Source of the DNA: Herbiconiux sp. L3-i23
Lineage (GTDB): Bacteria > Actinomycetota > Actinomycetes > Actinomycetales > Microbacteriaceae
Reading direction: 5' to 3'
Length of the DNA: 64,000 nt
Assembly (NCBI RefSeq): GCF_023734115.1
Contig: NZ_AP025737.1
Span: 2,852,001-2,916,000, forward strand
The notes beneath the pieces were generated by a model. The model made no database searches. It had not been told where the DNA came from and saw only the letters and a list, made by a program, of their open reading frames with translations. Numbering within the stretch: the first letter of the stretch is position 1; every line of letters begins with the position of its first letter. Positions 7,272 to 37,573 of the stretch are shown here, in pieces. Position numbers and translations under genes: made by a program.

Positions 7272-8837
7272 ATGTCTGCAACTTTCAGCACGCTCGGCGT
7301 GCCCGCCCCTCTCGTGTCGGAGCTCACCGCTCAGGGCATCGAGTCCCCGTTCCCCATCCAGGTCGACACCCTGCCCGACACCCTCGCCGGGCGCGACGTG
7401 CTCGGCCGCGGCCGCACCGGCAGCGGCAAGACGCTCGCGTTCTCGCTGCCCCTCGTCGCCCGCCTCGGTGGCGAGCTCGCCGGCGGCAAGCGCCGCGCCG
7501 GCCGCCCGCTCGGACTCGTGCTGGCCCCCACTCGGGAGCTCGCGACCCAGATCGCCGCGACCGTGACCCCGCTCGCCGCGAAGTACGGCCTCACCACGAC
7601 GACGATCTTCGGCGGCGTGAACCAGAACCGTCAGGTGAGCGCGTTGAAGGCCGGCGTCGACATCGTCGTCGCCTGCCCCGGTCGCCTCGAGGACCTCATG
7701 AAGCAGGGCTTCATCACCCTCGACGGGGTCGAGATCACCGTCATCGACGAGGCCGACCACATGGCCGACCTCGGCTTCCTGCCCGGCGTCACCCGGATCC
7801 TCGCGGCGACGCCGGAACGCGGTCAGCGCCTGCTGTTCTCCGCGACGCTCGACAACGGCGTGGACAAGCTGGTGAACCGCTTCCTGCACGACGAGCGGAT
7901 GCACTCGGTGGACGAGGCCAACTCCCCCGTCGCCGCCATGACGCACCACGTGTTCGAGGTCGAGGGTCCCGAGGCGAAGAAGGCGCTCGTGCAGCGCCTC
8001 GCGTCGGGCCGGTCGCGCCGCATCCTGTTCACCCGTACGAAGCACCACGCGAAGAAGCTGGCCGCCAGCCTGACCGCGGCGGGCATCCCCGCCGTCGATC
8101 TGCAGGGCAACCTGTCGCAGCCTCAGCGCGACCGCAACCTCGCCGCGTTCGGCGACGGCAGCGTCCGCGTGCTGGTCGCCACCGATGTCGCCGCCCGCGG
8201 CGTTCACGTCGACGGCGTCGAGCTCGTCGTCCACGTCGACCCGCCGACCGAGCACAAGGCCTACCTGCACCGCTCGGGTCGCACCGCCCGTGCCGGGTCG
8301 GAGGGCGATGTCGTCACCGTGTCGCTCGCGAGCGAGCGCAAGGACGTTGCCACCCTGCTGCGCAAGGCGTCCATCTCGGTGCAGCCCCAGCAGGTCGACG
8401 CCGGGTCGGCCGCGGTCGACGCACTCGTCGGCCCCGCCGCCGACTACGTGAAGCCGGCGCCCAAGGTGGTGCAGACCCGCACCCCCGGCACGAGCCAGGG
8501 CGCGAACGCGCAGCGCAAGCGCGCGGCCCGCGCCGAGCGCGGCGGCCAGCGCAGCGAGAACGGCCAGCGCACCGAGAACGGACGGCGCGGCGACGCAGGT
8601 CAGCGTCGGGACCGCGGAGTGCGCGACGAGGTCCGTTCCGGCCAGCGTGACCAGACCCGCACGGGCCAGCGCACCGCGCGTTCGGACGCGCCGTCGACCG
8701 GTCGCGCGGCGAGCGCGTCGGCGGGCGGTTCGCGCTCGGGCGGCTCGCGTCGTGCGAGCAGCGCGGGCGGTGCCCCGAAGCTCATGGTGGGGTCGACCGT
8801 GCGTCAGAACGGCGGCGGCAACCGCCGCGGTCGCTGA
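7272..8837 (+). CDS. DEAD-box ATP-dependent RNA helicase
   Basis: A 521-residue RNA helicase. All core motifs are present in order: the Q motif region (FPIQ, 27-30), Walker A GRTGSGKT (47-54), PTRELA, CPGR, DEAD within VIDEADHMADLG, SAT, then the second RecA domain with ILFTRTKHHAKKLA, ATDVAARGVHV and HRSGRTARAG. The last ~120 residues are a disordered Arg/Gly/Ser-rich tail typical of RNA-binding extensions. It likely remodels RNA during ribosome assembly or in the cold. The space between 7038 and the start (about 230 bp) holds no gene and probably contains a long 5' leader; I see no defined riboswitch there. Confidence 0.93.
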   Translation: MSATFSTLGVPAPLVSELTAQGIESPFPIQVDTLPDTLAGRDVLGRGRTGSGKTLAFSLPLVARLGGELAGGKRRAGRPLGLVLAPTRELATQIAATVTPLAAKYGLTTTTIFGGVNQNRQVSALKAGVDIVVACPGRLEDLMKQGFITLDGVEITVIDEADHMADLGFLPGVTRILAATPERGQRLLFSATLDNGVDKLVNRFLHDERMHSVDEANSPVAAMTHHVFEVEGPEAKKALVQRLASGRSRRILFTRTKHHAKKLAASLTAAGIPAVDLQGNLSQPQRDRNLAAFGDGSVRVLVATDVAARGVHVDGVELVVHVDPPTEHKAYLHRSGRTARAGSEGDVVTVSLASERKDVATLLRKASISVQPQQVDAGSAAVDALVGPAADYVKPAPKVVQTRTPGTSQGANAQRKRAARAERGGQRSENGQRTENGRRGDAGQRRDRGVRDEVRSGQRDQTRTGQRTARSDAPSTGRAASASAGGSRSGGSRRASSAGGAPKLMVGSTVRQNGGGNRRGR

Positions 8838-8848
8838 CCCGGGCCGAA

Positions 8849-8902
8849 GAACCCAGCGAGACAGACGAACTCAGCGAGTCAGACGAACCCAGCGAGTCAG
8901 AC
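8849..8902. repeat. 18-bp tandem repeat, three copies
   Basis: Three head-to-tail copies of an 18-bp unit (8849-8866, 8867-8884, 8885-8902; core CAGCGAG..AGACGAA) differ at only one or two positions. They fill the space between the convergent helicase and Nudix-like genes, and the third copy supplies the last codons and stop of the latter. Confidence 0.8.
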
Positions 8903-9445
8903 GAGGCGGCCGACGGAGGCCATCGCCATGCGCAGCAGCGCTCCGCGGCCGCCTTCCATCTCGGCGGCGACGCTGTCGCTGACCGCTTCGGCCGGTGACA
9001 TCCAGGTCAGCTCGAGGGCGTCCTGGCGCGGGTCGCAGGTGCCGGTGACGGGAACGACGTAGGCGAGCGCGACGGCGTGCTGGCGCTCGTCGGTGTACTG
9101 GCTGATGCTCGGCGTCGGGAAGTACTCGGCGACGGTGAACGGCGCCGGGCTCGCCGGGAGCTGCGGGAAGGCCATCGGCCCGAGGTCCTTCTCGAGGTGG
9201 CGGAACAGCGCGTCGCGCAGGGTCTCGCCGTACATGACGCGTCCGGACACGATGGTGCGGGTGATGGTGCCCGCCGACCCGACCCGGAGCAGCACGCCGA
9301 CCTCGGTGACCTGTCCGAGCCCGTCGACTCGCACGGGCACCGCTTCGACGTAGAGCAGCGGGAGGCGCTGCCGGATGCCCGCGAGTTCCTCGTCGCTCAA
9401 CCAGCCGGGGTTCGGGTCGGGGGTCCCGGTGCCTACGAAGCTCAT
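8897..9445 (-). CDS. Nudix-like DUF4916 family protein
   Basis: A 182-residue protein of the Nudix-related DUF4916 family: N-terminal NPGWLSDEELAGIRQRLPLLYVEAVPV, a central VGVLLRVG strand and a Nudix-box-like segment at about residues 70-91 beginning GRVMYGETLRDALF. Compared with the Nudix consensus (G-x5-E-x7-R-E-U-x-E-E-x-G-U) the Gly, first Glu and Arg are kept, but the REU and EE positions read RHL and EK. Metal-dependent pyrophosphohydrolase activity may therefore be weak or lost. It converges on the RNA helicase; its stop lies in the third copy of the 18-bp repeat. Confidence 0.75.
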   Translation of the reverse strand: MSFVGTGTPDPNPGWLSDEELAGIRQRLPLLYVEAVPVRVDGLGQVTEVGVLLRVGSAGTITRTIVSGRVMYGETLRDALFRHLEKDLGPMAFPQLPASPAPFTVAEYFPTPSISQYTDERQHAVALAYVVPVTGTCDPRQDALELTWMSPAEAVSDSVAAEMEGGRGALLRMAMASVGRLV

Positions 9446-9503
9446 GGGCCTATTCTTCCCACATCTCGTCCGAGAAGTCCGGTGCGGGAGGAAGGATGCC
9501 ACC

Positions 9504-10148
9504 ATGCCGGGGACAGGGAAGCCCTCCGTCGACGCCCGCGCGGTGATCTGGTCGGCGAAGCCGACGGAGCTCGCCGACCGGCCGCTGCTCGTCCTCCTGC
9601 ACGGCGTCGGCTCCCACGAGGGGGACCTCTTCGGTCTCGCCCCGCACCTGCCGCTGCAGCCGGTGATCGCGTCGCTGCGCGCGCTCGCCCCGTACGGCGC
9701 CGGGTGGTCCTGGTACGAGCTCGGCACACCCGGCGACCCGAAGAGCGACGGCGTCGACGCCGCCGCCGCCGCGGTACTCGATTGGCTCGACTCCCTCGGC
9801 CCCGCCCCCACCTCGGTCGGCCTGATGGGCTTCTCGCAGGGCGCCGCTGTCTCGCTGCAGGCCCTGCGCCACGCTCCCGAGCGCTTCGACTTCGTCGTGC
9901 AACTCTCCGGCTACGTCACCTCCGGCGAGCTCGAGGGCGACGCCCGTCTCGCCGAACTGCGCCCACCGGTGTTCTGGGGCCGCGGCACCGACGACGAGAT
10001 CATCCCGGCCGAGGCCGTCGCGCGCACCGAGGAATGGCTGCCCGGCCACAGCGATCTCGATCGGCGCATCTACGAGGACCTCCCCCACGCCGTCTCGCAG
10101 GCCGAGCTCGCCGACGTGATCGGCTTCCTCCGACGCCACTACGGTTAG
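9504..10148 (+). CDS. Phospholipase/carboxylesterase-type alpha/beta hydrolase
   Basis: A 214-residue serine hydrolase of the carboxylesterase/phospholipase family. The oxyanion motif LLHGVGSHEGD is at about residue 32, the nucleophile in GFSQGAA (about 110-116), the acid in WGRGTDDEIIP, and the catalytic His in DLPHAVSQ near the C-terminus. The ATG at 9504 has GGGAGGAAGG about 8 nt upstream. The gene is divergent from the Nudix-like gene (59 bp apart) and converges on the CPBP gene. Substrate not predictable. Confidence 0.85.
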   Translation: MPGTGKPSVDARAVIWSAKPTELADRPLLVLLHGVGSHEGDLFGLAPHLPLQPVIASLRALAPYGAGWSWYELGTPGDPKSDGVDAAAAAVLDWLDSLGPAPTSVGLMGFSQGAAVSLQALRHAPERFDFVVQLSGYVTSGELEGDARLAELRPPVFWGRGTDDEIIPAEAVARTEEWLPGHSDLDRRIYEDLPHAVSQAELADVIGFLRRHYG

Positions 10149-10168
10149 CGTCCGTCTGCGCGCCCGGT

Positions 10169-10945
10169 TCAAGCCGCTGCGGAAGCCGCGACGACGATCG
10201 CCACAGTGAACGTCGCCCAGTCGTTCAGGATGTGCGCTCCCGTCGAAACCGCGATGTTCTTGGTACGGATGAATGCGAGGGTGAGCACGAGTCGGGCCGC
10301 GCCGATGATGAGGAACGCCTGCGCGAAGTTCCAGTCGTAGGTCGGCAGGTGCGCCGCTCCGAACCAGACCGCGGTGACCAGCCAGGCGAGGACGATCGAC
10401 GTCTTCCGGCCGAGGTGCGCCTTGGTGACGAGGAGGTACATGAGGGCCAGGAACGGAAGAAGGGTGAAGACCTCCTCCCCGAATAGCTGGATCCCCGTCC
10501 CCACGTAGAAGGCGACGAGGTTCGCGGCGCCCGAAGCGGCCAGCCCATCGGTCGCCGGGTTCGGGTTAGCGCCGAAGACCGCAGCCACGACGAGGCCGAC
10601 GATCGCCGACACCGCGAGGTTGAGCAGCCAGAAGACGACCATGTCCAACAGGTCCCAGCCGGACAGTCGGCGGAAGATCGACGTCCAGTAGCGACCGGTG
10701 AACAGGATGAACACCGAGAGCGGGATCGCCGGGAAGAGGAGGCGCGGCACGAGAGCGACGATCTGGTCGGGTTGGGGAATCAGCACCAACGCGGCGAACC
10801 CGGCGGCGCAGGCGAGCACGATGATGAGCCACTTCCAGGCCGCGACCTCGATCGGCCGCCCGTCGTAGAAGGGCAAGTCCCGACCGTCTCGGCGCTCGAT
10901 GGGTCTGCCGAAGCGCTCTCGCCTCTGTCCGGTCACCGCGCTCAT
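10169..10945 (-). CDS. CPBP-family intramembrane protease-like protein
   Basis: A 258-residue membrane protein with about six to eight hydrophobic segments, a basic N-terminus and the CPBP (Abi) domain in its second half. Motif 1 reads GEEVFTLLP, keeping the paired Glu but not the following Arg of EExxxR; motif 2 FGAAHLPTY and motif 3 HILNDW keep the His and Asn/Asp ligands. The metal site therefore seems largely intact. CPBP proteins are CAAX-type intramembrane proteases, in bacteria linked to bacteriocin self-immunity or unknown roles. It is divergent from lhr and shares the repeat-containing intergenic region. Confidence 0.8.
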   Translation of the reverse strand: MSAVTGQRRERFGRPIERRDGRDLPFYDGRPIEVAAWKWLIIVLACAAGFAALVLIPQPDQIVALVPRLLFPAIPLSVFILFTGRYWTSIFRRLSGWDLLDMVVFWLLNLAVSAIVGLVVAAVFGANPNPATDGLAASGAANLVAFYVGTGIQLFGEEVFTLLPFLALMYLLVTKAHLGRKTSIVLAWLVTAVWFGAAHLPTYDWNFAQAFLIIGAARLVLTLAFIRTKNIAVSTGAHILNDWATFTVAIVVAASAAA

Positions 10946-11056
10946 GCACCACCCCCACCTCGGCGTGCGCCCAGCATGGCAGTCGCGCGGCCCGACCGAT
11001 AGCCTCGCTCGGCCCCGACCCCGCCTCGGCGACCCCGAACAGGCTGTTCGGAGCCC

Positions 11057-11104
11057 TCGGTGTTCCGAGAACTCGGTGTTCCGAGAACTCGGTGTTCCGA
11101 GAAC
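11057..11104. repeat. Three tandem 16-bp repeats containing GTTC-CGA-GAAC
   Basis: Three perfect head-to-tail copies of TCGGTGTTCCGAGAAC (11057-11072, 11073-11088, 11089-11104). Each includes the interrupted palindrome GTTC-CGA-GAAC. The array ends one base before the TTGTCGGTG element and lies between the divergent CPBP and lhr genes, so it looks like an iterated regulator-binding site. Confidence 0.85.
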
Positions 11105-11105
11105 G

Positions 11106-11128
11106 TTGTCGGTGGCATGGTCCATGAT
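11106..11128 (+). promoter_or_regulatory. PafBC-type (LexA-independent) DNA-damage promoter of lhr
   Basis: TTGTCGGTG at 11106-11114 matches the mycobacterial RecA-NDp/PafBC promoter element TTGTCRGTG. It is followed by the expected eight bases and CATGAT (11123-11128), five of six (or better) to the TAnnnT -10 pattern at its defined positions except the first. Transcription would begin about 11135, exactly at the chosen ATG, giving a leaderless mRNA. The consensus is recalled from mycobacterial work; no test is available here. Confidence 0.65.
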
Positions 11129-11134
11129 GTGCGG

Positions 11135-14100
11135 ATGGCCACGCCGCACGAGAGCTTGGGTCGTTTCTCCGGAGCGACCGCCGAGTGGTTCACTGGCGCC
11201 TTCGGTCAGCCGACCGAGGCGCAATCCGGCGCGTGGTCCGCCATCTCCAGCGGGTCGCACGCCCTCGTGGTCGCGCCGACGGGCTCCGGCAAGACGCTCG
11301 CGGCGTTCCTGTGGGCCATCGACCGGCTGGCCTCCTCGCCTCCCCCCGCTCCGTCCGACGAACTGCCCCGCACCCGGGTGCTCTACCTCTCACCGCTGAA
11401 GGCCCTCGGTGTCGACGTCGAGCGCAACCTGCGGAGCCCTCTGGTGGGCATCACCCAGACCGCGAAGCGCCTGGGCGGCGCCTCGCGCGACATCACCGTC
11501 GGCGTGCGGTCGGGCGACACCCCGTCGTCCGAGCGGCGTGCGCTCGTCAGCTCGCCGCCCGACATCCTCATCACCACTCCCGAGTCGCTGTATCTGATGC
11601 TCACCTCGGCGGCGCGCGAGACCCTGCGCGGGGTCGACACGGTGATCATCGACGAGGTCCACGCCGTCGCCTCGACGAAGCGCGGCTCGCATCTGGCGCT
11701 GTCCCTCGAGCGGCTCGACGCCCTGCTCGAGAAGCCGGCGCAGCGGATCGGGCTGTCGGCGACGGTGCGTCCGCTCGACGAGGTGGCCCGCTTCCTCGGC
11801 GGCCGCGCGCCGGTCACCATCGTCGCGCCGGGCTCGGCGAAGCGGTTCGATCTCACGGTGGTCGTGCCGGTCGACGACATGGCCGAGCTCGGCGCCGCCC
11901 CCTCCGACGAGGGCGGCGAAGCCCGCAGCGGTTCGATCTGGCCGCACGTCGAGGAGGCGATCGTCGACCTCGTCACCCGCCACCGGTCGTCGATCGTGTT
12001 CGCCAACTCCCGGCGTCTCGCCGAGCGGCTGACCGCGCGCTTGAACGAGGTGTGGTCCGAGCGGCTCGAACTCGAACTCGCGCCCGTCGGCGCCGCAGTC
12101 GCCGAGGTGCCGGGTCAGGGCGGAGCGACCCGCGGCGCCGACCCGTTGCTCGCCCGAGCGCATCACGGGTCGGTGAGCAAGGAGCAGCGCGCACTCATCG
12201 AAGACGATCTGAAGAGCGGTCGGCTGCGGGTCGTCGTCGCGACATCGAGCCTCGAACTCGGCATCGACATGGGCGCGGTCGATCTGGTCGTGCAGGTCGG
12301 AGCACCGCCGTCGGTCGCGAGCGGCCTGCAACGGCTCGGTCGCGCCGGTCACCAGGTGGGCGAGATCTCGCGTGGAGTGATGTTCCCCACCCACCGTGCC
12401 GACCTGGTGAGCTCCGCCGTCGTCGCCGGCCGCATGGTACGCAGCGAGATCGAGGCGATCGCGGTGCCCGCGAACCCGCTCGACATCCTCGCCCAGCAGA
12501 CGGTCGCCGCCTGCGCGCTCGACGTCCTCGACGTCGAGGAGTGGTTCGACACGGTTCGCCGCAGCGCTCCGTTCGGCTCGCTGCCGCGATCGGCGTACGA
12601 CGCGACCCTCGACCTGCTCGCCGGGCGGTATCCGTCGGACGAGTTCGCCGAGCTGCGCCCGCGACTCGTCTGGGACCGCGACGCTGGCACCCTCACCGGC
12701 AGGCCCGGCGCTCAACGTCTGGCGGTCACCTCGGGCGGCACCATCCCCGACCGCGGACTGTTCGGCGTCTTCATGGTCGGCGACGCCGGCGGCTCGAACC
12801 GCGTCGGCGAGCTCGACGAGGAGATGGTCTACGAGTCGCGGGTGGGCGACGTCTTCGCCCTCGGCACCACCAGTTGGCAGATCCAGGAGATCACCCACGA
12901 CCGCGTGCTCGTCACACCCGCGTTCGGTCAGCCCGGGCGGGTGCCGTTCTGGCGCGGCGACGGTCTCGGCCGTCCGGCCGAACTCGGACGCGCCATCGGC
13001 GGATTCATCCGCGAGGTCACCGGTCAGAAGCCCGATGCGGCGGCCGCGACGGTATCGGCACTCGGGCTCGACGAGCGGGCGACCGCGAACCTGCTCGGCT
13101 ACCTCGCCGAGCAGCGCGCCGCGACCGACAGTGTGCCGACCGACCGCACCCTCGTCGTCGAACGGTTCCACGACGAGCTCGGCGACTGGCGCGTCGTACT
13201 GCACTCGCCGTTCGGTATGCCCGTGCACTCACCGTGGGGGCTCGCGATCGCCGCCCGCGTCGAGGAGCAGTACGGCGTCGACGGCAACGTGATCACCTCC
13301 GACGACGGCATCGTGGTGCGCCTGCCCGACACCGACGGCGAGCCGCCGGGGGCCGAGCTGTTCGTGTTCGACCCCGACGAGATCGACGACATCGTCACCC
13401 GCGAGGTGGCGGGCTCCGCGCTCTTCGCCTCCCGGTTCCGCGAGTGCGCCGCACGCGCCCTGCTGCTGCCGCGCTACAACCCGTCGCGACGGTCTCCGCT
13501 CTGGCAGCAGCGCCAGCGCGCCTCCCAACTGCTCGACGTCGCCAAGAAGTACCCGAGCTTCCCGATCATCCTCGAGACCATCCGCGAAGTGATGCGCGAC
13601 GTCTACGACCTGCCCGCCCTCGGCGAGATCGTCCGCGAGATCGAGCAGCGGCGCATCCGCATCGTCGAGACCACGACGCAGGCCGCGTCGCCGTTCGCGA
13701 GCTCGATCCTGTTCGGATACGTGGGCGCGTTCATGTACGAAGGCGACAGCCCGCTCGCCGAACGCAAGGCCGCAGCGCTCGCCCTCGACAGCTCGCTCCT
13801 GTCCGAACTGCTCGGACGCACCGAACTGCGCGAGCTGCTCGACCCCGAGGTCATCGAGCGCACCGAGCTCGAGCTGCAGCGCCTCGCCGATGACCGTCAG
13901 GCGAAAGACCTCGAGGGCGTCGCGGATCTGCTCCGCATGCTGGGGCCGCTGCGCACCGACGAGGTGCAGCAGCGCGTGCTGCCCGAGGTCCGCGACGAAG
14001 TGCCCACCTGGCTCGGCGCCCTGGTCGAATCCCGCCGCGCCCTCGCGGTCTCGTTCGCCGGCGAGGAGCGGTGGGCCGCGATCGAAGACGCGAGCCGTCT

Positions 14101-25166: not shown

Positions 25167-27677
25167 TCAGCCGGCGGCGGCGATGTCCGGACCGGCCGCG
25201 ATCGCTCCCTGAGCGGTCCCAGCGCCGACCATGTCGTGACGCTTGCCCGTGGTGAAGGTGAACTCACCGTCGACGAAGTCGACCTGGATGTGGTCGCCCG
25301 CCTCGAGCTCGCCGTGCAGGATCTTCTCCGACAGACGGTCCTCGACCTCGTGCTGCACCGCGCGGCGCAGCGGACGGGCGCCGAGCGCCGGGTCGAAACC
25401 GAGGTCGATCAGACGCTCCTTGGCGGGCACCGCGATCTCGATCGTCATGTCGCGGTCCATCAGGCGGAAGCTCAGCCGCTTGATGAACAGGTCGACGATC
25501 TGCAGCAGCTCGGGCTTGGTGAGCTGCGGGAAGACGATCGTCTCGTCGACGCGGTTCAGGAACTCGGGCTTGAAGTGCTTCTTCAGCTCCTCGGTGACCT
25601 TCGCGCGCATCCGGTCGTACCCGGTCGACGTGTCGCCCTCCATCACGAAGCCCACGGGTCCACCCGCGATGTCCTTCGTTCCGAGGTTGGTCGTCATGAT
25701 GATGACCGTGTTCTTGAAGTCGACGACGCGACCCTGACCGTCGGTCAGACGTCCCTCCTCCAGGATCTGGAGCAGCGAGTTGAAGATGTCGGGGTGCGCC
25801 TTCTCGATCTCGTCGAACAGGACCACGCTGAACGGCTTGCGGCGGACCTTCTCTGTCAGCTGGCCGCCCTCTTCGAATCCGACGAATCCGGGAGGGGCGC
25901 CGAACAGACGCGAGACGGTGTGCTTCTCGCCGTACTCGGACATGTCGAGCGAGATCAGAGCGTTCTCGTCGTCGAAGAGGAACTCGGCGAGCGCCTTGGC
26001 CAGCTCGGTCTTACCGACACCGGTGGGGCCGGCGAAGATGAACGAACCGGAGGGACGCTTCGGGTCCTTCAGACCGGCGCGGGTGCGACGGATCGTCTTG
26101 GCGAGCACCGAGATGGCCTCGTCCTGACCGATGACGCGCTCGTGCAGGGCCTTCTCCATGAAGATGAGCCGGCTGGACTCCTCCTCGGTGAGCTTGAACA
26201 CCGGGATGCCGGTCGCCTGGGCGAGCACCTCGGCGATCAGACCCTCGTCGACCTCGGCGGTCGTCGCGACGTCGCCCGACTTCCACTTCTTCTCGAGGCG
26301 CAGACGCTCGGCGAGGAGCTGCTTCTCCTCGTCGCGCAGGCCGGCGGCCTTCTCGAAGTCCTGGTCTTCGATCGCGGTCTCCTTGGCGGCACGCACCACG
26401 GCGATCTTCTCGTCGAACTCGCGCAGCTCCGGCGGCGCCGACAGGATCGACAGGCGCAGGCGGGCGCCGGCCTCGTCGATCAGGTCGATGGCCTTGTCGG
26501 GCAGGAAGCGGTCCTGGATGTAGCGGTCGGCGAGGTTCGCCGCGGCCACGATCGCGCCATCGGTGATGGACACCTTGTGGTGCGCCTCGTAGCGGTCGCG
26601 CAGGCCCTTGAGGATGTTGATCGCGTGGGGCAGCGAGGGCTCGTTGACCTGGATCGGCTGGAAGCGGCGCTCGAGCGCGGCGTCCTTCTCGAAGTGCTTG
26701 CGGTACTCGTCGAGCGTGGTCGCGCCGATGGTCTGCAGCTCACCGCGGGCGAGCAGCGGCTTCAGGATGCTGGCCGCGTCGATCGCGCCCTCGGCGGCAC
26801 CCGCACCCACCAGGGTGTGGATCTCGTCGATGAAGGTGATGATGTCGCCGCGGGTGCGGATCTCCTTCGTCACCTTCTTGAGGCGCTCCTCGAAGTCACC
26901 GCGGTAGCGGCTGCCGGCGATGAGCGAGCCGAGGTCGAGGGTGTAGAGCTGCTTGTCCTTCAGCGTCTCGGGCACGTCGCCGCGCACGATGGCCTGGGCC
27001 AGGCCCTCGACGACGGCGGTCTTGCCGACGCCGGGCTCGCCGATGAGGACCGGGTTGTTCTTAGAGCGGCGCGACAGGATCTGCATGACGCGCTCGATCT
27101 CCTTCTCGCGCCCGATGACCGGGTCGAGCTTGCCGTCGCGCGCGGCCTGAGTCAGGTTGCGCCCGAACTGGTCGAGCACCTGCGAGCCCTGCTGGGCGCT
27201 CTGCTGGTTCTCACCACCCACGGCGATCGCCTCCTTGCCCTGGTATCCCGAGAGCAGCTGGATGACCTGCTGGCGCACGCGGTTGAGGTCGGCGCCGAGC
27301 TTGACGAGCACCTGGGCGGCGACACCCTCGCCCTCACGGATGAGGCCGAGGAGGATGTGCTCGGTGCCGATGTAGTTGTGACCGAGCTGCAGCGCCTCGC
27401 GGAGGCTGAGCTCGAGCACCTTCTTGGCGCGCGGCGTGAACGGGATGTGCCCCGTCGGCTGCTGCTGGCCCTGGCCGATGATGTCCTGGACCTGCTCGCG
27501 CACCGCGTCGAGCGAGATGCCCAGCGACTCGAGCGCCTTCGCGGCCACACCCTCACCCTCGTGGATGAGCCCGAGCAGGATGTGCTCGGTGCCGATGTAG
27601 TTGTGGTTCAGCATCTTCGCCTCTTCCTGGGCGAGGACGACGACGCGACGGGCTCGATCGGTGAATCTCTCGAACAT
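25167..27677 (-). CDS. clpC: ATP-dependent Clp protease ATP-binding subunit ClpC
   Basis: An 836-residue Hsp100 unfoldase that feeds substrates to ClpP. It has two N-terminal Clp repeats (both with [14 protein letters not shown]), the first AAA domain with [15 protein letters not shown] and [12 protein letters not shown], a UVR-containing middle region (about 420-460), the second AAA domain with [19 protein letters not shown] and [11 protein letters not shown], and the LDRVDE-like sensor. Order and length are typical of actinobacterial ClpC/ClpC1. ATG 27677 begins [13 protein letters not shown], the universal ClpC start. A ClgR-like box lies 85-102 bp upstream. Confidence 0.96.
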
Positions 27678-27761
27678 GTAAGTCTTCTCCCCCGACACCG
27701 CAAGGGAAGGGCGGCGTCGAATACATAGAGAGTAACGAGCGGGACCCCCTGACACTGCCCC

Positions 27762-27779
27762 TGTTCGCTCACGGCAACA
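27762..27779 (-). promoter_or_regulatory. ClgR-like operator upstream of clpC
   Basis: TGTTCGCTCACGGCAACA matches most defined positions of the actinobacterial ClgR consensus (core CGC-YNANR-GCG, here CGC-TCACG-GCA). ClgR activates clp genes in Corynebacterium and Streptomyces. Its distance from the clpC start suits an activator. The right half-site is imperfect. Confidence 0.45.
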
Positions 27780-27793
27780 CCGCTTCTTGCGCT

Positions 27794-27826
27794 TATCGAA
27801 CATCGATGTACTATCGAGTATCGATA
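27794..27826 (+). promoter_or_regulatory. Two tandem TATCGA-N3-TCGATA operators
   Basis: Two 15-bp inverted repeats lie 18 bp apart centre to centre: TATCGA-ACA-TCGATG (27794-27808) and TATCGA-GTA-TCGATA (27812-27826). They sit just before the AAGGAG ribosome-binding site of the DUF2975 gene and are AT-rich against a GC-rich background. The XRE protein encoded downstream is the obvious candidate to bind them. Confidence 0.6.
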
Positions 27827-27853
27827 ACAACGAAGAACGATAAGGAGCATCCC

Positions 27854-28459
27854 GTGTCGAATCCCCGTACCTCCGGACGGCCCTTCTCCCGCTCGGACGT
27901 CGTCGCGACGGCGACGCTCGGCGCCATCGTCGCCGTCTGGACGATCGTCGACCTGGTGGTCTCGCTGACCTCGATCCTCTCCAACCGCGATGTGCCCATC
28001 AGGGTGTGGGTCGACGACGCGAGCGCCGCGCTCCCCCTGCCCACCGGCAGTGCGGAGATCACGCTGACCAGCGGCGTCGCGGAGGTGAGCGACATGCCGC
28101 CGTTCATCCTCGGCGTCGTCGCCTCATCGGCCGTGGTCCGCGCAGCGGCGATCCTCGCCGTCACCGCTCTCGTGCTGATCCTCTGCCGGAACCTCGCCCG
28201 CGGGAAGGTGTTCAGCTCGGGCAACACCGCCCTCGTCACCGGCATCGCCGTGGCGATCGCGGTCGGCTGGTTCCTCACCAGCCTCTTCGCGCAGATGGCG
28301 AGCAACAGCGCGGTCAACGTGTTGACCGACAAGGCGTACTCCTCCGCGCAGGCGCCGGTCGAGTGGACCCCGTACCTCGCGGCGTTCGCCGTCACCGTCG
28401 TCGCGGTCGCATTCCGCGCCGGCGAGCGCCTGCAGCGCGACACCGAGGGCCTGGTCTGA
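27854..28459 (+). CDS. DUF2975-type four-helix membrane protein
   Basis: A 201-residue membrane protein with four hydrophobic segments (about 17-40, 90-115, 128-150, 175-192). It has a long outside loop between helices 1 and 2 and a CRNLARGKVFSSGNTALV motif between helices 2 and 3, which is the DUF2975 hallmark. These proteins are nearly always encoded with a small XRE regulator, as here. The GTG at 27854 has AAGGAG seven bases upstream. It shares the TGATG junction with the regulator gene. Confidence 0.8.
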   Translation: MSNPRTSGRPFSRSDVVATATLGAIVAVWTIVDLVVSLTSILSNRDVPIRVWVDDASAALPLPTGSAEITLTSGVAEVSDMPPFILGVVASSAVVRAAAILAVTALVLILCRNLARGKVFSSGNTALVTGIAVAIAVGWFLTSLFAQMASNSAVNVLTDKAYSSAQAPVEWTPYLAAFAVTVVAVAFRAGERLQRDTEGLV

Positions 28460-28710
28460 TGGCGCCCGCCGCCGAGACCGACCTCTCCCGCGTGCACTGC
28501 CGTCTCGACGAGCTCCTCGCCGCGCGCGGCATGACGCTGACCCGCCTCAGCGAGCTCGTGGGGGTGAGTCTCGTGAACCTCTCCGTGCTGAAGAACGACC
28601 GCGCGAAGGCCATCCGATTCTCGACGCTGACGGCGATCTGCGAGGCGCTCGGGTGCGAGATCGGAGAGCTGCTCGTGCTGGCGCCGGGTCCGGTCTCCGA
28701 AGCCCCCTGA
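28459..28710 (+). CDS. Small XRE/Cro-type transcriptional regulator
   Basis: An 83-residue helix-turn-helix protein (HTH_26/YozG-like): VHCRLDELLAARGMTLTRLSELVGVSLVNLSVLKNDRAKAIRFSTLTAICEALGCEIGELL, which spans nearly the whole chain. Its ATG overlaps the stop of the DUF2975 gene (TGATG). In DUF2975/XRE pairs the regulator is thought to control its own operon; the tandem palindromes at 27794 are its likely sites, which is inference from position. Confidence 0.85.
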   Translation: MAPAAETDLSRVHCRLDELLAARGMTLTRLSELVGVSLVNLSVLKNDRAKAIRFSTLTAICEALGCEIGELLVLAPGPVSEAP

Positions 28711-28823: not shown

Positions 28824-30185
28824 TTGACCGACCGCCAGCCCGGCGCGGCCATCGGCCGATACCGAGTGCTCTCCGTCATCGGCCAAGGCGGGCTCGCCAC
28901 CGTGTACTCCGCCCACGACACCCTGCTCGACCGCGACGTCGCGGTCAAGGTGTTCTCCTCGCGAGCGACCAGCCGCGAGCTGGTCAAGGTCCAGGAGGCC
29001 GAGGCGCGGCTCGCCGCCAAGCTCAACCACCACGCCCTCACCACCCTGTACGACGCGGGCGTCGATTCCAGCGACCCCGAGGCTCCGCAGATCTACCTCG
29101 TGATGGAGCACATCGCAGGGGCCGACCTCAAGCAGCGTCTGGAGCGAGGAAGCCTCAACGACCTCCAGCTGGCCTATCTCGCAACCGATCTCAACTCCGC
29201 CCTCGCCTACGTGCACGAGAACGGCTTCATCCACTGCGACATCAAGCCGGCGAACGTGCTCGTCGCCGACCGCGATGCCGCCACGCGACTGCGGGGCAAG
29301 CTCACCGACTTCGGCATCGCCGGCATCATCGGCGCCAACGGGGGCCGCGGCACCACGACCGGCACCGCCGCGTACCTGGCGCCCGAGCAGGTCGAAGGCG
29401 GCGACCCGACGACGGCGACGGACGTGTACGCCCTCGGCCTGGTGCTGATCGAGGCGTACAAGGGCACGATCGAGTTCCCCGGCTCGGTTCAGGAGACCGC
29501 ACTCGAGCGCCTGCGCCGCGACCCCGTGATGCCCGCCGGCATGGAGACCGACCTCGCATCCGCCCTGCGCGCGATGGTCGAGCGCGACCCGGCGAAGCGC
29601 ATCTCCGCCCGCGAAGCGGCCGAGCGGTTCGAACGCGTCGCGGCACGCCTCATCGCCAAGGTCAAGGGCGCATCGATGCCCGTCACCCACACCTCGGAGG
29701 AGGACCGCGTCGACGCCGTGCACCGCTACGGCATCCTCGACACCCCGCCGGATGAGGCGTTCGACCGCATCACCCGCATCGCGGGGCGCATGCTGGCCAG
29801 CCCGATCTCGTTCGTCTCGATCGTCGACGAGGACCGCGTGTTCCACAAGGCGCGGCTCGGCGTCGACATCGAACAGGTCCCCCGCGAGTTCTCGCTCTGC
29901 CCGATCACCGTCGACGTGGGCGCCCCCTGGTACGTCTCCGACATCGCGGTCGACGAGCGCACGAAGGACAACGCCCTCCTCGCCCAGCACGGGGTCCGCG
30001 CCTACGCGGCGGCGCCGATGATCACCGAAGACGGGCACACCATCGGCTCGCTCTGCGTCTACGACGTGCGGCCGCGCACCTTCTCGCCCGAAGACCTGGC
30101 CGACCTCAACGAGCTCGCCGCGGTCGCGATGCACGAGCTCGAACTCCGCCTGGCCGCCCGTCGCGCGGCGTTCGGCGCCGCCTGA
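28824..30185 (+). CDS. Ser/Thr protein kinase-GAF fusion, copy 1
   Basis: A 453-residue soluble protein with no membrane helix. Residues 12-275 form a Hanks-type Ser/Thr kinase: glycine loop IGQGGLATVY (19-28), ATP-binding Lys42 in VAVKVF, catalytic loop HCDIKPAN (137-144), DFG (162-164) and APE (186-188). The catalytic loop has Cys in place of the usual Arg (non-RD), but Asp139 is kept, so activity is expected. Residues about 293-450 form a GAF sensor domain starting RYGILDTPPDEAFD. The TTG at 28824 is chosen because AGAGGAAGAGG lies just before it. It is the first of three paralogues in a row; the next starts 49 bp later. Confidence 0.88.
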   Translation: MTDRQPGAAIGRYRVLSVIGQGGLATVYSAHDTLLDRDVAVKVFSSRATSRELVKVQEAEARLAAKLNHHALTTLYDAGVDSSDPEAPQIYLVMEHIAGADLKQRLERGSLNDLQLAYLATDLNSALAYVHENGFIHCDIKPANVLVADRDAATRLRGKLTDFGIAGIIGANGGRGTTTGTAAYLAPEQVEGGDPTTATDVYALGLVLIEAYKGTIEFPGSVQETALERLRRDPVMPAGMETDLASALRAMVERDPAKRISAREAAERFERVAARLIAKVKGASMPVTHTSEEDRVDAVHRYGILDTPPDEAFDRITRIAGRMLASPISFVSIVDEDRVFHKARLGVDIEQVPREFSLCPITVDVGAPWYVSDIAVDERTKDNALLAQHGVRAYAAAPMITEDGHTIGSLCVYDVRPRTFSPEDLADLNELAAVAMHELELRLAARRAAFGAA

Positions 30186-30234
30186 GCCGTCTTCGCGGTC
30201 ATCGGGGCACTGCCGCCTGGACCAAGATGGACCT

Positions 30235-31557
30235 ATGGCCGACCCACAGACTGCTCATCCCGCGGTGATCGCCGGCCGGTATCGCGTCGTGTCGGAGATC
30301 GGACGTGGCCCGTCGGCGACCGTCTACCTCGCCGACGACGCGGTCCTCGGCCGTCGGGTGGCGGTCAAGGTGTTCGTCGCGGCACGCGCGGGTGAGGAAC
30401 TGCGTCTGCAGGAGGCCGAGGCGAGGCGGGTCGCCGCGCTCGAACATCCGAGCCTCACCGCCCTGTTCGACGCGGGTGTCGCAACGGAGTTCGACGGCGC
30501 CCCGCGCATCTTCCTCGTCTCGGAGTGGACCGATGGACCGCATCTGCGCTCGCAGGTCGATCTCGCGCCGCTCTCTCCGACTGCCGTCGCGCACCTCGGC
30601 CTCCACCTCGCCGAAGGGCTCGCGCACATCCACTCTCGGGGTCTGGTGCACGGCAGCATCAAGCCCGACAACGTGCTGCTGTCGGCTCACGACTCGCTGA
30701 CGCGCCCCTGGGGCAAGCTCGCCGACCTCGATCAGAAGACCGTGGTGTCGGGCTCGCAGGGCCCGGCCGACGAGGCACCGAGCGCCCGCCACCGGGCGAC
30801 CCTCGAGCTGACCCCGGCCGAAGACGTGCTCGGCCTCGGAGCGACCCTCGCCTTCGCGCTGAGCGGCTCGCTGGAGTTCGACGACACCGGATCGGTGCGA
30901 CTCCCCGAGGGGACTCCTCGTGCGCTGGCCGACACTCTGACGGCGATGACAGCACCGTCGCCCGGAGACCGTCCCGATGCGGCCCGAGTGGCGGACGAAC
31001 TGCGTCTCTTCTTCGTGTCCGCCGTGAGCGGCACCCGGGTCCGTGCCGACGACCGCACCACAGAGCGGGAGCGGGTCGCGGCGGTCCGGCGCTACGGCAT
31101 CCTCGACACGCCCCCCGACGAGATGTTCGACCGACTGACCCGCCTGGCCGCCCGGATGACCGACACCCCGATGGCGTTCGTGTCGATCGTCGACGAGGAC
31201 CGGGTCTTCCTCAAGTCGATCCACGGCAGCGACCTGTCCGGCGACGTCCCGGTCGACGAGTCCCTCTGCACGTTCACCGCGCGCGGCGGCGAACCGTGGA
31301 CGGCGTACGACATCTGGACCGATCCACGCACCCGGAACGTGCCACTCCCTCTGGAGCGCGGGTCGGTGAACTCGTACGCGGCCGCCCCGCTCGTCACCCA
31401 CGACGGGTACGCGATCGGCTCGCTCTGCGTCTACTCGGTCGCCCACCGCGAGTTCTCGGACTCCGACCTCGACGACCTGTCGGAGCTGGCGGCGATCGGC
31501 ATGCGCGAGCTCGAACTGGTCCGCACGGCCCGCAGCGTGCGGCAGGTCGCCGCATGA
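30235..31557 (+). CDS. Predicted pseudokinase-GAF fusion, copy 2
   Basis: A 440-residue paralogue of its two neighbours with the same layout: kinase fold about 14-270, GAF about 280-435 (RYGILDTPPDEMFD). The glycine loop IGRGPSATVY and Lys45 remain. However, the catalytic loop reads HGSIKPDN (139-146), with Ser141 replacing the catalytic Asp. DFG reads DLD (164-166) and the APE motif is missing (TPAEDVLG). It can perhaps bind ATP but should not transfer phosphate, so it is predicted to be a regulatory pseudokinase. Its stop overlaps the start of copy 3 (ATGA), implying coupled translation and perhaps a complex. Confidence 0.85.
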   Translation: MADPQTAHPAVIAGRYRVVSEIGRGPSATVYLADDAVLGRRVAVKVFVAARAGEELRLQEAEARRVAALEHPSLTALFDAGVATEFDGAPRIFLVSEWTDGPHLRSQVDLAPLSPTAVAHLGLHLAEGLAHIHSRGLVHGSIKPDNVLLSAHDSLTRPWGKLADLDQKTVVSGSQGPADEAPSARHRATLELTPAEDVLGLGATLAFALSGSLEFDDTGSVRLPEGTPRALADTLTAMTAPSPGDRPDAARVADELRLFFVSAVSGTRVRADDRTTERERVAAVRRYGILDTPPDEMFDRLTRLAARMTDTPMAFVSIVDEDRVFLKSIHGSDLSGDVPVDESLCTFTARGGEPWTAYDIWTDPRTRNVPLPLERGSVNSYAAAPLVTHDGYAIGSLCVYSVAHREFSDSDLDDLSELAAIGMRELELVRTARSVRQVAA

Positions 31558-32903
31558 GCGCGGGCCCCGCTCCGCGGCTCGGACGCTACGAACTGCGCGA
31601 GGTCATCGGCCGCGGCGGTCTCGCCACCGTCTACTCCGCCCACGACTCGCTCCTCGACCGCGAGGTCGCGATCAAGCTGTTCAATGCCGACGCGTCGAGC
31701 GCCGAACTCGTCCGGGTCCAGGAGGCCGAAGCGCGCATCGCGGCGCAGCTCAGCCACTTCGCCCTCACCTCGCTCTACGACGTCGGGGTCGAATCGTCCG
31801 ACGCGGGACACCCCCGCATCTTCCTCGTGATGGAGCACGTCCGCGGCGGCGATCTCAGCGGCCGTCTCGATCAGGGCCCGCTCCGTCCGAACCAGCTGCT
31901 CTCCCTGGCGTGGGATCTGGCGAGCGCGCTCGAGTACATCCACGGCAACGGCTTCGTGCACCGCGACCTCAAGCCGGCGAACGTGCTCATCACCGAGGAC
32001 CCCGCCAACGGACGAGTCCGCGGCAAGCTCACCGATTTCGGCATCACCAGCATCCTCGGCGCCCACGCCGGTCAGGGCACCCGCAAGGGCACCGCCGCCT
32101 ACATCAGTCCCGAACAGGTCGAGGGCGCCGACCCCGACCTCGCGACCGATGTGTACGCGCTCGGCCTCGTCTTCCTCGAGGCCCTCACCGGCCGGATCGA
32201 GTTCCCCGGGGCGATGGAGCAAACGGCGTTCGCGCGGCTCGAACGCGATCCGGTCATCCCCGATTCGGTGCCCCCCGTCGTCGCGGACCTCCTCCGCGGC
32301 ATGACGCATCGACAGCCCGCCCTCCGGCCGACGATGGGCGTGGTGCTCGAGCGCATCGAGGCGGCCGCAGCCACCCTCGCGGCGCCCATCGCGAGCGCAC
32401 CGACCTCCGACGACCCCGAGAAGGGACGTCTTGCGGCGCTGCGCCGCTACGGTGTGCTCGACAGCCCGCCCGACGACGCACTCGACCACTTCACGCTTCT
32501 CGCGTCGCGCCTGTTCGACGCCCCCATCAGCCTGCTGTCCTTCGTCGATGACGAGCGGGTGTGGCTGAAGTCGCACCGCGGAGTCGCGGTGCAGCAGGTC
32601 AGCCGCGACGCGGCGCTCTGCACACTGACGGTCGAAGGAGCGACGGCGATCGCCGTCCCTGACATCTCCACCGATCCGCGGAGCGCCGACAACACCGCAC
32701 TGCGGATGACCGATGCGATGGCCTACGCGGCGGCGCCGCTCATCACGCACGACGGGTATGCGATCGGGAGTCTCTGCGTCTACGACACCCGCCCCAGGAG
32801 CTTCGCCGACGACGACCTCGCCGATCTCGCCGACCTCGCCGCGCTCGCCATGCGAGAACTCGAGCTGCGGCTCGCCGCCCGAGAGGCTCTCTTCGCAGCC
32901 TGA
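31554..32903 (+). CDS. Ser/Thr protein kinase-GAF fusion, copy 3
   Basis: A 449-residue protein with the most complete kinase of the three: IGRGGLATVY (18-27), Lys41 in VAIKLF, canonical HRDLKPAN (136-143), DFG (161-163) and SPEQVEG. A GAF domain follows (about 290-445, RYGVLDSPPDDALD). It has no signal peptide or membrane helix, unlike PknA/PknB-type receptor kinases. The ATG overlaps the TGA of copy 2. GAF domains bind small molecules or sense redox state; the ligand here is unknown. No phosphatase or obvious substrate gene lies beside the cluster. Confidence 0.9.
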   Translation: MSAGPAPRLGRYELREVIGRGGLATVYSAHDSLLDREVAIKLFNADASSAELVRVQEAEARIAAQLSHFALTSLYDVGVESSDAGHPRIFLVMEHVRGGDLSGRLDQGPLRPNQLLSLAWDLASALEYIHGNGFVHRDLKPANVLITEDPANGRVRGKLTDFGITSILGAHAGQGTRKGTAAYISPEQVEGADPDLATDVYALGLVFLEALTGRIEFPGAMEQTAFARLERDPVIPDSVPPVVADLLRGMTHRQPALRPTMGVVLERIEAAAATLAAPIASAPTSDDPEKGRLAALRRYGVLDSPPDDALDHFTLLASRLFDAPISLLSFVDDERVWLKSHRGVAVQQVSRDAALCTLTVEGATAIAVPDISTDPRSADNTALRMTDAMAYAAAPLITHDGYAIGSLCVYDTRPRSFADDDLADLADLAALAMRELELRLAAREALFAA

Positions 32904-35960: not shown

Positions 35961-37466
35961 TCACTTCACCAGGGGGAAGAGGATCGTCTCACGGATGCCG
36001 AGCCCGGTTAGCGCCATCAGCAGACGGTCGATGCCCATGCCCATGCCGCCCGTCGGGGGCATGCCGTGCTCGAGGGCCCGGAGGAACTCCTCGTCGACGC
36101 GCATCGCCTCGGGGTCGCCCTTCGAGGCGAGCAGGGCCTGCTCGACGAAGCGCTCGCGCTGAATGACCGGGTCGACCAGCTCCGAGTACCCGGTGGCCAG
36201 TTCGAAGCCGCGGACGTAGAGGTCCCACTTCTCGACGACCCCGGCCTTCGAGCGGTGGTCGCGCACGAGCGGCGAGGTGTCGACCGGAAAGTCCAGAACG
36301 AACGTCGGTGCGACGAGTCCCGGCTTGACGAAGTGCTCCCAGAGCTCCTCGACGTACTTGCCGCGCAGCGGGTGCTCGATCTCGATGCCGACGCTCTCGG
36401 CGAGCGCCGTGAGCTCGTCCTGAGGCGTCTCCGGCGTGACCTGCACTCCGGCGGCCTCGCTCAGCGACTCGTACATGCCGATGCGCGCCCATTCGCCGCC
36501 GAGGTCGTACTCGGTGCCGTCGGCCCAGGTGACGACGTGCGAGCCGTAGGCGTCGAGGGCGGCGTTCTGGATGAGCTCCTGGGTGAGGTCGGCGATGCCG
36601 TTGTAGTCGCTGTACGCCTGGTAGGCCTCGAGCATCGCGAACTCGGGCGAGTGCGTCGAGTCGGCGCCCTCGTTGCGGAAGTTGCGGTTGATCTCGAAGA
36701 TGCGCTCGAGCCCGCCGACGGCGGCGCGCTTGAGGAACAGCTCCGGGGCGATGCGCAGGTACAGGTCGATGTCGAACGCATTGCTGTGAGTGATGAAGGG
36801 GCGGGCCGCCGCACCGCCGTGCTGCACCTGCAGCATCGGCGTCTCGAGTTCGAGGAAGTCATGCGAATCGAAGGTGCGACGCAGCGACGCGACCGCCTTC
36901 GCGCGTGCCCGCACCGTCTCTCGGGCCTGCTCTCTGACGATGAGGTCGAGGTAGCGGCTGCGCACCCGCGATTCCTCGCTCAGCTCGGCGTGCAGGTTGG
37001 GCAGGGGCAGCACCGCCTTCGAGGCGATGCGCCACTCGGCGACGAGCACCGACAGCTCACCGCGGCGGGAGGTGATGACCTCGCCGCGGACGAAGAGGTG
37101 GTCGCCGAGGTCGACGAGCTCCTTCCACCGGTCGAGCGAGTCCTGCCCGACCTCGGCGAGGCTCAGCATCGCCTGGATGCGCTCGCCGTCGCCGGCTTGG
37201 AGGGCGGCGAAGCAGAGCTTGCCGGTGTTGCGGAGGTGCACGATGCGCCCGGCGAGGGCGACGGTCTCGCCCGTCGCGACATCGGCCTCGAGATCGGTGT
37301 GACGGGCTCGGACCTTCGCGATGGTGTCGGTGATGGGCACCTCGACCGGGTACGCCTCGGTGCCCTCGTCGATCAGCCGCTCGCGCTTGGCGAGGCGGAC
37401 CGCCTTCTGCTCGCTGACGTCGTCGTCGGCGTCGAAGGGCTCGGGAGCGTCGGGATTCTCGGACAA
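35961..37466 (-). CDS. lysS: Lysyl-tRNA synthetase (class II)
   Basis: A 501-residue class II lysyl-tRNA synthetase, which charges tRNA-Lys. It has an OB-fold anticodon-binding domain ([21 protein letters not shown]), motif 1 ([21 protein letters not shown]), motif 2 ([28 protein letters not shown]) and motif 3 ([16 protein letters not shown]). I chose the TTG at 37466 ([10 protein letters not shown]), with GGAG about seven bases before it; the frame further upstream is not conserved-looking. It follows panC on the same strand after 107 bp. Confidence 0.95.
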
Positions 37467-37573
37467 GAGGTCTCCAGGATCGGGTGGGAACGGCCCCTCA
37501 ACGGTACCCCGCAGGCGGACCCGCGGTCGGCGCGGGGTCCTGGGCAGGGGCGGCGCTGACACCGGCGCGGACG

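Follow-up and report, generated by a model that had tools for sequence, protein, structure and literature searches.

GAF is listed as one of the partner domains to which Ser/Thr kinases of prokaryotes are most often tethered (PMC2877116). By sequence, a kinase-like protein counts as a pseudokinase when it is without the beta3 Lys, the HRD Asp and/or the DFG Asp (PMC12599244). The roles of bacterial pseudokinases given in that 2025 review include scaffolding, secretion and altered enzyme activity, while cases in which a pseudokinase controls a kinase related to it have been described in animals, as in Fam20A–Fam20C (PMC4421793), HER3–EGFR and KSR–RAF (PMC8141879). The stretch considered here, a window of 64,000 nucleotides from the actinobacterium Herbiconiux sp. 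L3-i23 (NZ_AP025737.1, positions 2,852,001 to 2,916,000), carries three adjacent kinase–GAF genes arranged head to tail, of which the middle one encodes a pseudokinase and a candidate regulatory partner of its siblings.

Three tandem kinase–GAF genes with a pseudokinase in the middle

The genes and motifs concerned are listed below in window coordinates. Copies 1 and 3 are abbreviated c1 and c3, and psi denotes copy 2 or its orthologue in G132, an uncultured Naasia metagenome-assembled genome.

28824..30185, + strand: copy 1 (c1), soluble Hanks-type kinase with a C-terminal GAF domain; 453 amino acids, TTG start; HCD, DFG and APE motifs
29232..29240, + strand: HCD, the catalytic loop motif of c1, which retains the Asp
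30186..30234, + strand: gap of 49 bases between c1 and copy 2
30235..31557, + strand: copy 2, pseudokinase with a GAF domain; 440 amino acids, ATG start
30649..30672, + strand: HGSIKPDN of copy 2, Ser141 in place of the catalytic Asp; Lys143 and Asn146 kept
30724..30732, + strand: DLD (residues 164–166) where intact kinases have DFG; Asp164 retained, Asp at the position of the Gly
30733..30804, + strand: degenerate activation segment without APE; includes the poorly modelled residues 169–190
31114..31494, + strand: GAF domain of copy 2 (Pfam); closest solved sequence relative 4zmu, E 1e-11
31554..31557, + strand: ATGA overlap of the copy 2 stop (TGA) and the copy 3 start (ATG)
31554..32903, + strand: copy 3 (c3), kinase with a GAF domain; 449 amino acids, ATG start; HRD, DFG and SPE motifs

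All three products have the Hanks-type (PknB-like) fold by Pfam, with Pkinase scores of 144.4 bits for c1 (scored as a protein with 57 additional upstream codons), 59.2 for copy 2 and 145.4 for c3, against a curated cut-off of 31.7. The GAF scores (54.3, 46.8 and 43.5 bits, respectively) are also above the curated cut-off. The peak 19-residue Kyte–Doolittle mean is 1.25–1.42 across the three proteins, and no membrane helix is indicated in any of them. Copy 2 is 42–45% identical to c1 and c3. A preliminary description of the locus, as three adjacent soluble kinase–GAF paralogues with the catalytic Asp kept in copies 1 and 3 and an ATGA overlap between copies 2 and 3, was confirmed by coordinates, Pfam, hydropathy and motifs: the Asp is present in the HRD of c3 and in c1, where HCD replaces HRD. 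With the beta3 Lys, the HxD Asp, DFG and xPE in place, c1 and c3 are predicted to be active Ser/Thr kinases. A pattern scan detected no terminator-like or sigma70-like pattern in the 49-base gap and no terminator-like pattern between the three genes; the sole terminator-like match that it gave in the region is within copy 2, at chance level, and the scan is uninformative.

Copy 2 departs from an active Ser/Thr kinase at HGS, at DLD and by the absence of APE, as the preliminary description had stated and the motif alignment confirmed. With Ser at the place of the HRD Asp, it is a pseudokinase by the sequence definition given above, and it retains the beta3 Lys and the alphaC Glu. Its orthologue in G132 reads HGC and DIE, has a beta3 Arg and is likewise without APE. 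Kept in both psi proteins are the alphaC Glu, the catalytic-loop Asn146, the DFG Asp164 and the alphaF Asp, with Lys or Arg at beta3; 64 and 53 of the 92 columns that intact relatives conserve are retained (70% and 58%). The predicted catalytic loss is conserved between the two genomes, the exact residues are not, and the expected conservation of Ser141 and DLD was not borne out, with Cys and DIE in G132. Copy 2 holds up as a real, retained pseudokinase: the G132 orthologue lies in the same gene order and has likewise lost its catalytic residues, and purifying selection acts on the pair.

In the AlphaFold2 model of copy 2 (nine sequences; mean predicted local distance difference test score, pLDDT, 81.4), residues 169–190 fall below 50 at the expected activation segment. 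The c1 model (mean pLDDT 81.7) also has a poorly predicted loop, with residues 166–177 below 50, so that this feature does not set the dead copy apart. Short helices near the APE place (181–184 and 187–190) occur in the c1 model and none between 172 and 193 in copy 2. The placement of the domains is unreliable, given predicted template modelling scores of 0.55 and 0.58. The best Foldseek matches of copy 2 are PknB and PknA, and its 50 Foldseek rows consist, among the matches listed, of Hanks-type protein kinase chains, both bacterial and eukaryotic. For the GAF domain of copy 2, the single match among sequences in the Protein Data Bank (PDB) at E up to 1 is the diguanylate cyclase 4zmu.

Ancestry, selection and distribution

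The three orthologues in G132 are located as follows.

L074:7948-9324: orthologue of c1
L074:9321-10667: orthologue of copy 2
L074:10724-12070: orthologue of c3

In a tree of 69 rows (70 sequences aligned, with one distant kinase left out; the bootstrap was not fully settled, at 0.978), the genes of the window and of G132 pair copy by copy, with supports of 99/95 for c1, 100/100 for psi and 100/97 for c3. In Amnibacterium flavum (G185), the lone kinase–GAF at the clpC site (L072) is sister to c1 and counted as its orthologue, and a kinase–GAF at another site (L071) is nearest to the psi pair (98/92 for the other side). L071 is the closest outside homologue of window copy 2, at 46% identity. 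Judged from tree and motifs, copy 2 descends from an intact kinase, and the loss of catalysis can be placed after the split from the L071-type line of G185, because L071 keeps HRD, DFG and APE intact, and before the split between the window and G132. The view that homologues of copy 2 would not carry an intact catalytic Asp stood for the orthologue in G132, which is dead, and fell for L071. The branches leading to the psi genes measure 0.49 in the window and a long 1.86 in G132, where c3 (0.87) and a fourth, unlinked kinase–GAF (0.92) were also measured.

Copy 2 is under purifying selection, weaker than that on c1. Between the window and G132, omega, the nonsynonymous to synonymous ratio, is 0.54 for the psi pair (95% bootstrap 0.42–0.68), 0.24 for c1 (0.19–0.31) and 0.49 for c3 (0.38–0.62), values that are rough because the synonymous distances are about 1.1–1.2. 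By part, omega of copy 2 is 0.52 in the kinase and 0.51 in the GAF. The GC content at third codon positions (GC3) is 0.88 and 0.84 in the two psi genes, and neither contains a stop; in a simple neutral simulation starting from L071, with 0.3 and 0.6 changes per site, 1% and 0.15% of the copies, respectively, were stop-free.

A kinase–GAF is present in eight of the nine genomes of the genus (E up to 1e-40), and the triple in two of them, the window genome and G132. The interval between clpC and lysS contains three kinase–GAF genes in these two genomes and one each in G185 and G232 (Naasia sp. SYSU D00057). In G068, G273, G299 and G301, no kinase–GAF was found there among open reading frames (ORFs) of at least 120 amino acids (E up to 1e-5); clpC of G301 is broken at a contig end, with the interval to lysS on a single contig, and G300, 68% complete, was not scorable at this site, neither flank being found. 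The order kinase–pseudokinase–kinase is kept at the clpC–lysS site in G132, and the psi orthologue was encountered only alongside c1 and c3 (two of two genomes). In both genomes the genes are closely coupled: an ATGA overlap joins psi to c3 in the window and c1 to psi in G132. The arrangement is not due to chance, since the three genes are paralogues and a second genome has them arranged alike at the corresponding locus. A cluster conserved across Microbacteriaceae, as the preliminary description anticipated, was not recovered: beyond the two genomes of the genus, no further triple appeared among 398 family genomes in a profile search that scored at most 4 candidates per genome and was not exhaustive.

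The same 398 genomes were searched with a profile made from copy 2, its G132 orthologue and L071, and only the rows of the model itself beat 1e-200, the next match standing at 1.4e-148. Order-wide (297 genomes, at most 5 candidates scored per genome), matches that begin at profile position 11 or 12 and extend at least as far as position 445 were found in five genomes of other families; therefore, the kinase–GAF fusion itself is not special to Microbacteriaceae. One peptide-pattern scan of named genomes returned 16 loci, four of which are close kinase–GAFs.

A third pseudokinase was found in a sample of 75 distinct full-length kinase–GAFs, which is not a census: partial and duplicate sequences were dropped, no pair is more than 97% identical, and part of the matches was taken in from searches scoring up to 5 or up to 4 candidates per genome. 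The beta3 Lys, the HxD Asp and the DFG Asp are kept in 72 of the 75, the exceptions being window copy 2, its G132 orthologue and a gene of G016 (L054:1658-3508) with HLA, DSE and an alphaC Gln. The tree places the G016 gene among intact genes from the same genus as G016 (100/99). A single origin of the three pseudokinases was rejected by the approximately unbiased test (p 8e-5), with the caveat of long branches and of a group named after the tree had been seen. All three have a Pro in the glycine loop (GxGP), which occurs in 0 of the 72 intact members, and they are also the three of the 75 with an acidic residue for the DFG Gly (DLD, DIE and DSE). The nucleotide-site Asn and the DFG Asp are kept in all three. 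The occurrence of GxGP together with D-x-acid in separate pseudokinases looks convergent, a pattern that, with two origins, is no more than suggestive. The ORF ahead of the G016 pseudokinase reads by eye as SnoaL-like.

The surroundings of the triple in the window are as follows.

25167..27830, - strand: one flank of the locus, which we take to be clpC (named by eye)
27806..28710, + strand: pair upstream of the kinase genes, made up of an HTH_26 (helix-turn-helix, HTH) regulator and a membrane protein that resembles DUF2975 with a score short of the Pfam cut-off
35961..37562, - strand: the other flank, presumably lysS (likewise named by eye)

In G132 a similar DUF2975-like/HTH pair (its HTH read by eye) is found on the downstream side of the kinase genes, as is a DUF2975-like gene in G185. 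With the pair on differing sides of the kinase genes, the locus has been rearranged. The clpC–lysS interval ranges from about 0.5 kb to 11 kb across eight of the nine genomes. Within it, G299 and G232 additionally have ORFs that by eye look like sugar transport genes and a ROK-type regulator. Elsewhere in the window's own genome, three further Pkinase matches lie on one strand within 4.6 kb (G000:C1:875388-879919). Finally, locus L051 of G159 has two tail-to-tail kinase–GAF genes, at 7938-9584 (+) and about 9598-11170 (-), the latter with the odd motifs GxGE, VTPAN and ATTAY and intact catalytic residues.

Possible role of the middle copy

As copy 2 is a dead yet intact and constrained gene, it more likely regulates its siblings than phosphorylates. 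The reading favoured here is that of a three-gene cytoplasmic kinase–GAF unit in which the middle protein, non-phosphotransferring and possibly nucleotide-binding, would be kept as the regulatory partner of its siblings; our confidence in it is about evenly balanced. An acidic D-x-D is predicted to aid nucleotide binding in DYD kinases and has been reported for POMK (PMC12599244). A nucleotide-binding partner is preferred because the nucleotide-site residues are kept and because the DLD, DIE and DSE changes would, by analogy, fit such a role of the acidic residue.

The titles of PDB entries name PknB mutants at L33 and D76, which we take to form, with R10, the back-to-back dimer interface of that kinase. 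These residues align with Arg15, Leu38 and Asp79 of copy 2. Both psi proteins have R, L and D at these positions; the three residues are invariant in the nine aligned genes and present in 75, 75 and 74 of the 75 family members, respectively. The back-to-back dimer of the pseudokinase MviN uses a Leu and an Asp described as analogous to those on which other bacterial kinases depend to dimerise (PMC12599244), and the GAF domain of 4zmu (Dcsbis) dimerises via helices alpha2 and alpha5 (PMC4937426). In the proposed mechanism, the three proteins would pair in mixed dimers via their C-terminal GAF helices and the back-to-back face of the N-lobe. Copy 2, perhaps holding a nucleotide by Lys/Arg, Asn and D-x-D/E, would then set the active conformation of one catalytic sibling or of both, on the model of Fam20C, which is activated by its pseudokinase paralogue Fam20A (PMC4421793), and a GAF ligand would tune the pairing. 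A further-reaching form, a bacterial Fam20A/STRAD-type control in which a nucleotide-binding D-x-D/E pseudokinase switches two paralogues on via GAF-gated heterodimers, with GxGP and D-x-acid having arisen at least twice in kinase–GAFs, is put forward as a tentative possibility.

The partnership of copy 2 with its active siblings is one that we infer, and several results weigh against it. The sample of orthologues is two, and the G132 psi has a beta3 Arg and a weakly kept GAF domain (39% to that of the window). Retention of the three interface residues is not statistically striking, because overall retention is 70% and 58%: calculated by hand and assuming independence, it would arise by chance with a probability of about 0.34 and 0.19, and the positions may be kept because the fold requires them. 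In the G016 pseudokinase, the D76 equivalent (now His) and the alphaC Glu are both gone, and the nearest kinase–GAF seen lies 5.1 kb downstream, with 1.7 kb covered upstream. Joint acceleration of psi and c3 was rejected as evidence of partnership, since the unlinked fourth kinase–GAF of G132 is also fast. Moreover, a conserved partner gene was rejected as a lead, none being found among 843 clustered ORFs from 60 loci. In that clustering, the kinase–GAF cluster spans 54 loci, another cluster 9, and the next 8, 7 and fewer. The 9-locus cluster probably consists of antisense shadows of kinase–GAF genes, because six of its loci are exactly the six absent from the kinase–GAF cluster; those of 8 loci and fewer are, by eye, generic families (short-chain dehydrogenase, ABC transporter, aldo-keto reductase and glycosidase).

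Four other explanations were weighed. Copy 2 could serve as a scaffold or substrate, phosphorylated by its siblings or docking a downstream target through its kinase fold and GAF, with no allostery. The loss of catalysis, the retention and the linkage fit this equally, and EssB/YukC provides a bacterial precedent for a scaffold pseudokinase (PMC12599244). However, docking needs no retained nucleotide-site residues and the 60 loci yielded no conserved partner gene; this explanation is considered unlikely. A dominant-negative brake, in which copy 2 would pair with its siblings through GAF and N-lobe into dead heterodimers, dilute the active homodimers and so titrate signalling with no specific allosteric design, accords with the paralogous GAFs, with the kept dimer positions and with overlapping start and stop codons, which suggest coupled synthesis. 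A brake would not need the nucleotide site, yet its Asn and DFG Asp persist in three of three pseudokinases, and we judge it quite unlikely. That copy 2 is a relaxed, slowly decaying paralogue which two genomes happen to have kept is very unlikely: the long branches, an omega above that of c1 and the failure to find copy 2 in the seven other genomes of the genus (one of them 68% complete) would agree with slow decay, but omega is well below 1, GC3 remains high, there are no stops, the window GAF exceeds the Pfam cut-off and the catalytically intact c3 has a similar omega. Lastly, a non-kinase reaction such as SelO-like AMPylation, served by the Lys, Glu, Asn and Asp retained in copy 2 and suggested by a loose resemblance of HGSIKPDN to the SelO motif Hgvmntdn (Table 1, PMC12599244), is highly improbable; the likeness is not conserved in G132 (Ser for the Asp before Asn, beta3 Arg) and the Foldseek matches listed are all Hanks-type protein kinases.

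For the favoured regulatory partnership, all three candidates are small and soluble and are encoded at a single locus, and the question is directly testable with purified proteins.

Comparison with described systems

PknB and PknA of Mycobacterium tuberculosis, the best PDB matches by sequence and by fold, have in common with copy 2 the kinase fold and the residues at the L33 and D76 positions; copy 2 differs in having no transmembrane or PASTA part, no catalytic Asp, no Phe-Gly of DFG and no APE. PADLOC models PD-T4-6 and Mad6 match c1, copy 2 and c3 over the kinase domain only (in copy 2 mostly the first 155 residues). Such matches are taken to be common to Hanks kinases, and phage defence was provisionally set aside on account of this limit.

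The ActPs1, ActPs2, ActPs3 and DYD families (PMC12599244) are likewise actinobacterial Hanks-type pseudokinases, with the acidic D-x-D in DYD and the dimer Leu and Asp in the ActPs3 member MviN. In contrast to them, copy 2 has lost the HRD Asp but not the beta3 Lys or the DFG Asp, and it has a GAF domain and no transmembrane part. It is not an ActPs1 protein, in which all three catalytic residues are substituted. It is not ActPs2 either, a family with beta3 Arg, Asn for the HRD Asp, a DFG deletion and commonly a C-terminal transmembrane part, whereas copy 2 has Lys, Ser, DLD and no transmembrane part indicated; the G132 psi has the Arg, but Cys and DIE. The DYD proteins are membrane-associated, with beta3 Arg and no alphaC Glu, and share with the soluble, Lys- and Glu-containing copy 2 the D-x-D/E alone.

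The nearest solved GAF by sequence, that of Dcsbis (4zmu), has GGDEF and not a kinase as its output domain. The model for the proposed mechanism is Fam20A–Fam20C, in which a paralogous pseudokinase raises kinase activity (PMC4421793). The two differ from the present proteins in being animal secretory-pathway kinases. That pair is not known to include a GAF part. A word search of the main text of the bacterial pseudokinase review (PMC12599244) did not return 'heterodimer', and no description of a bacterial kinase–GAF triple with a pseudokinase was found by title or abstract start, among the matches listed, in the open-licence literature.

The closest relatives by architecture are the bacterial soluble kinase–GAF fusions, which have the same N-terminal PknB-like kinase, the same C-terminal GAF and no membrane helix, and of which c1 and c3 are ordinary members. 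Kinase–GAF fusions and bacterial pseudokinases are both already known; what is new at this locus is the tandem triple, with a middle copy that is without its catalytic residues.

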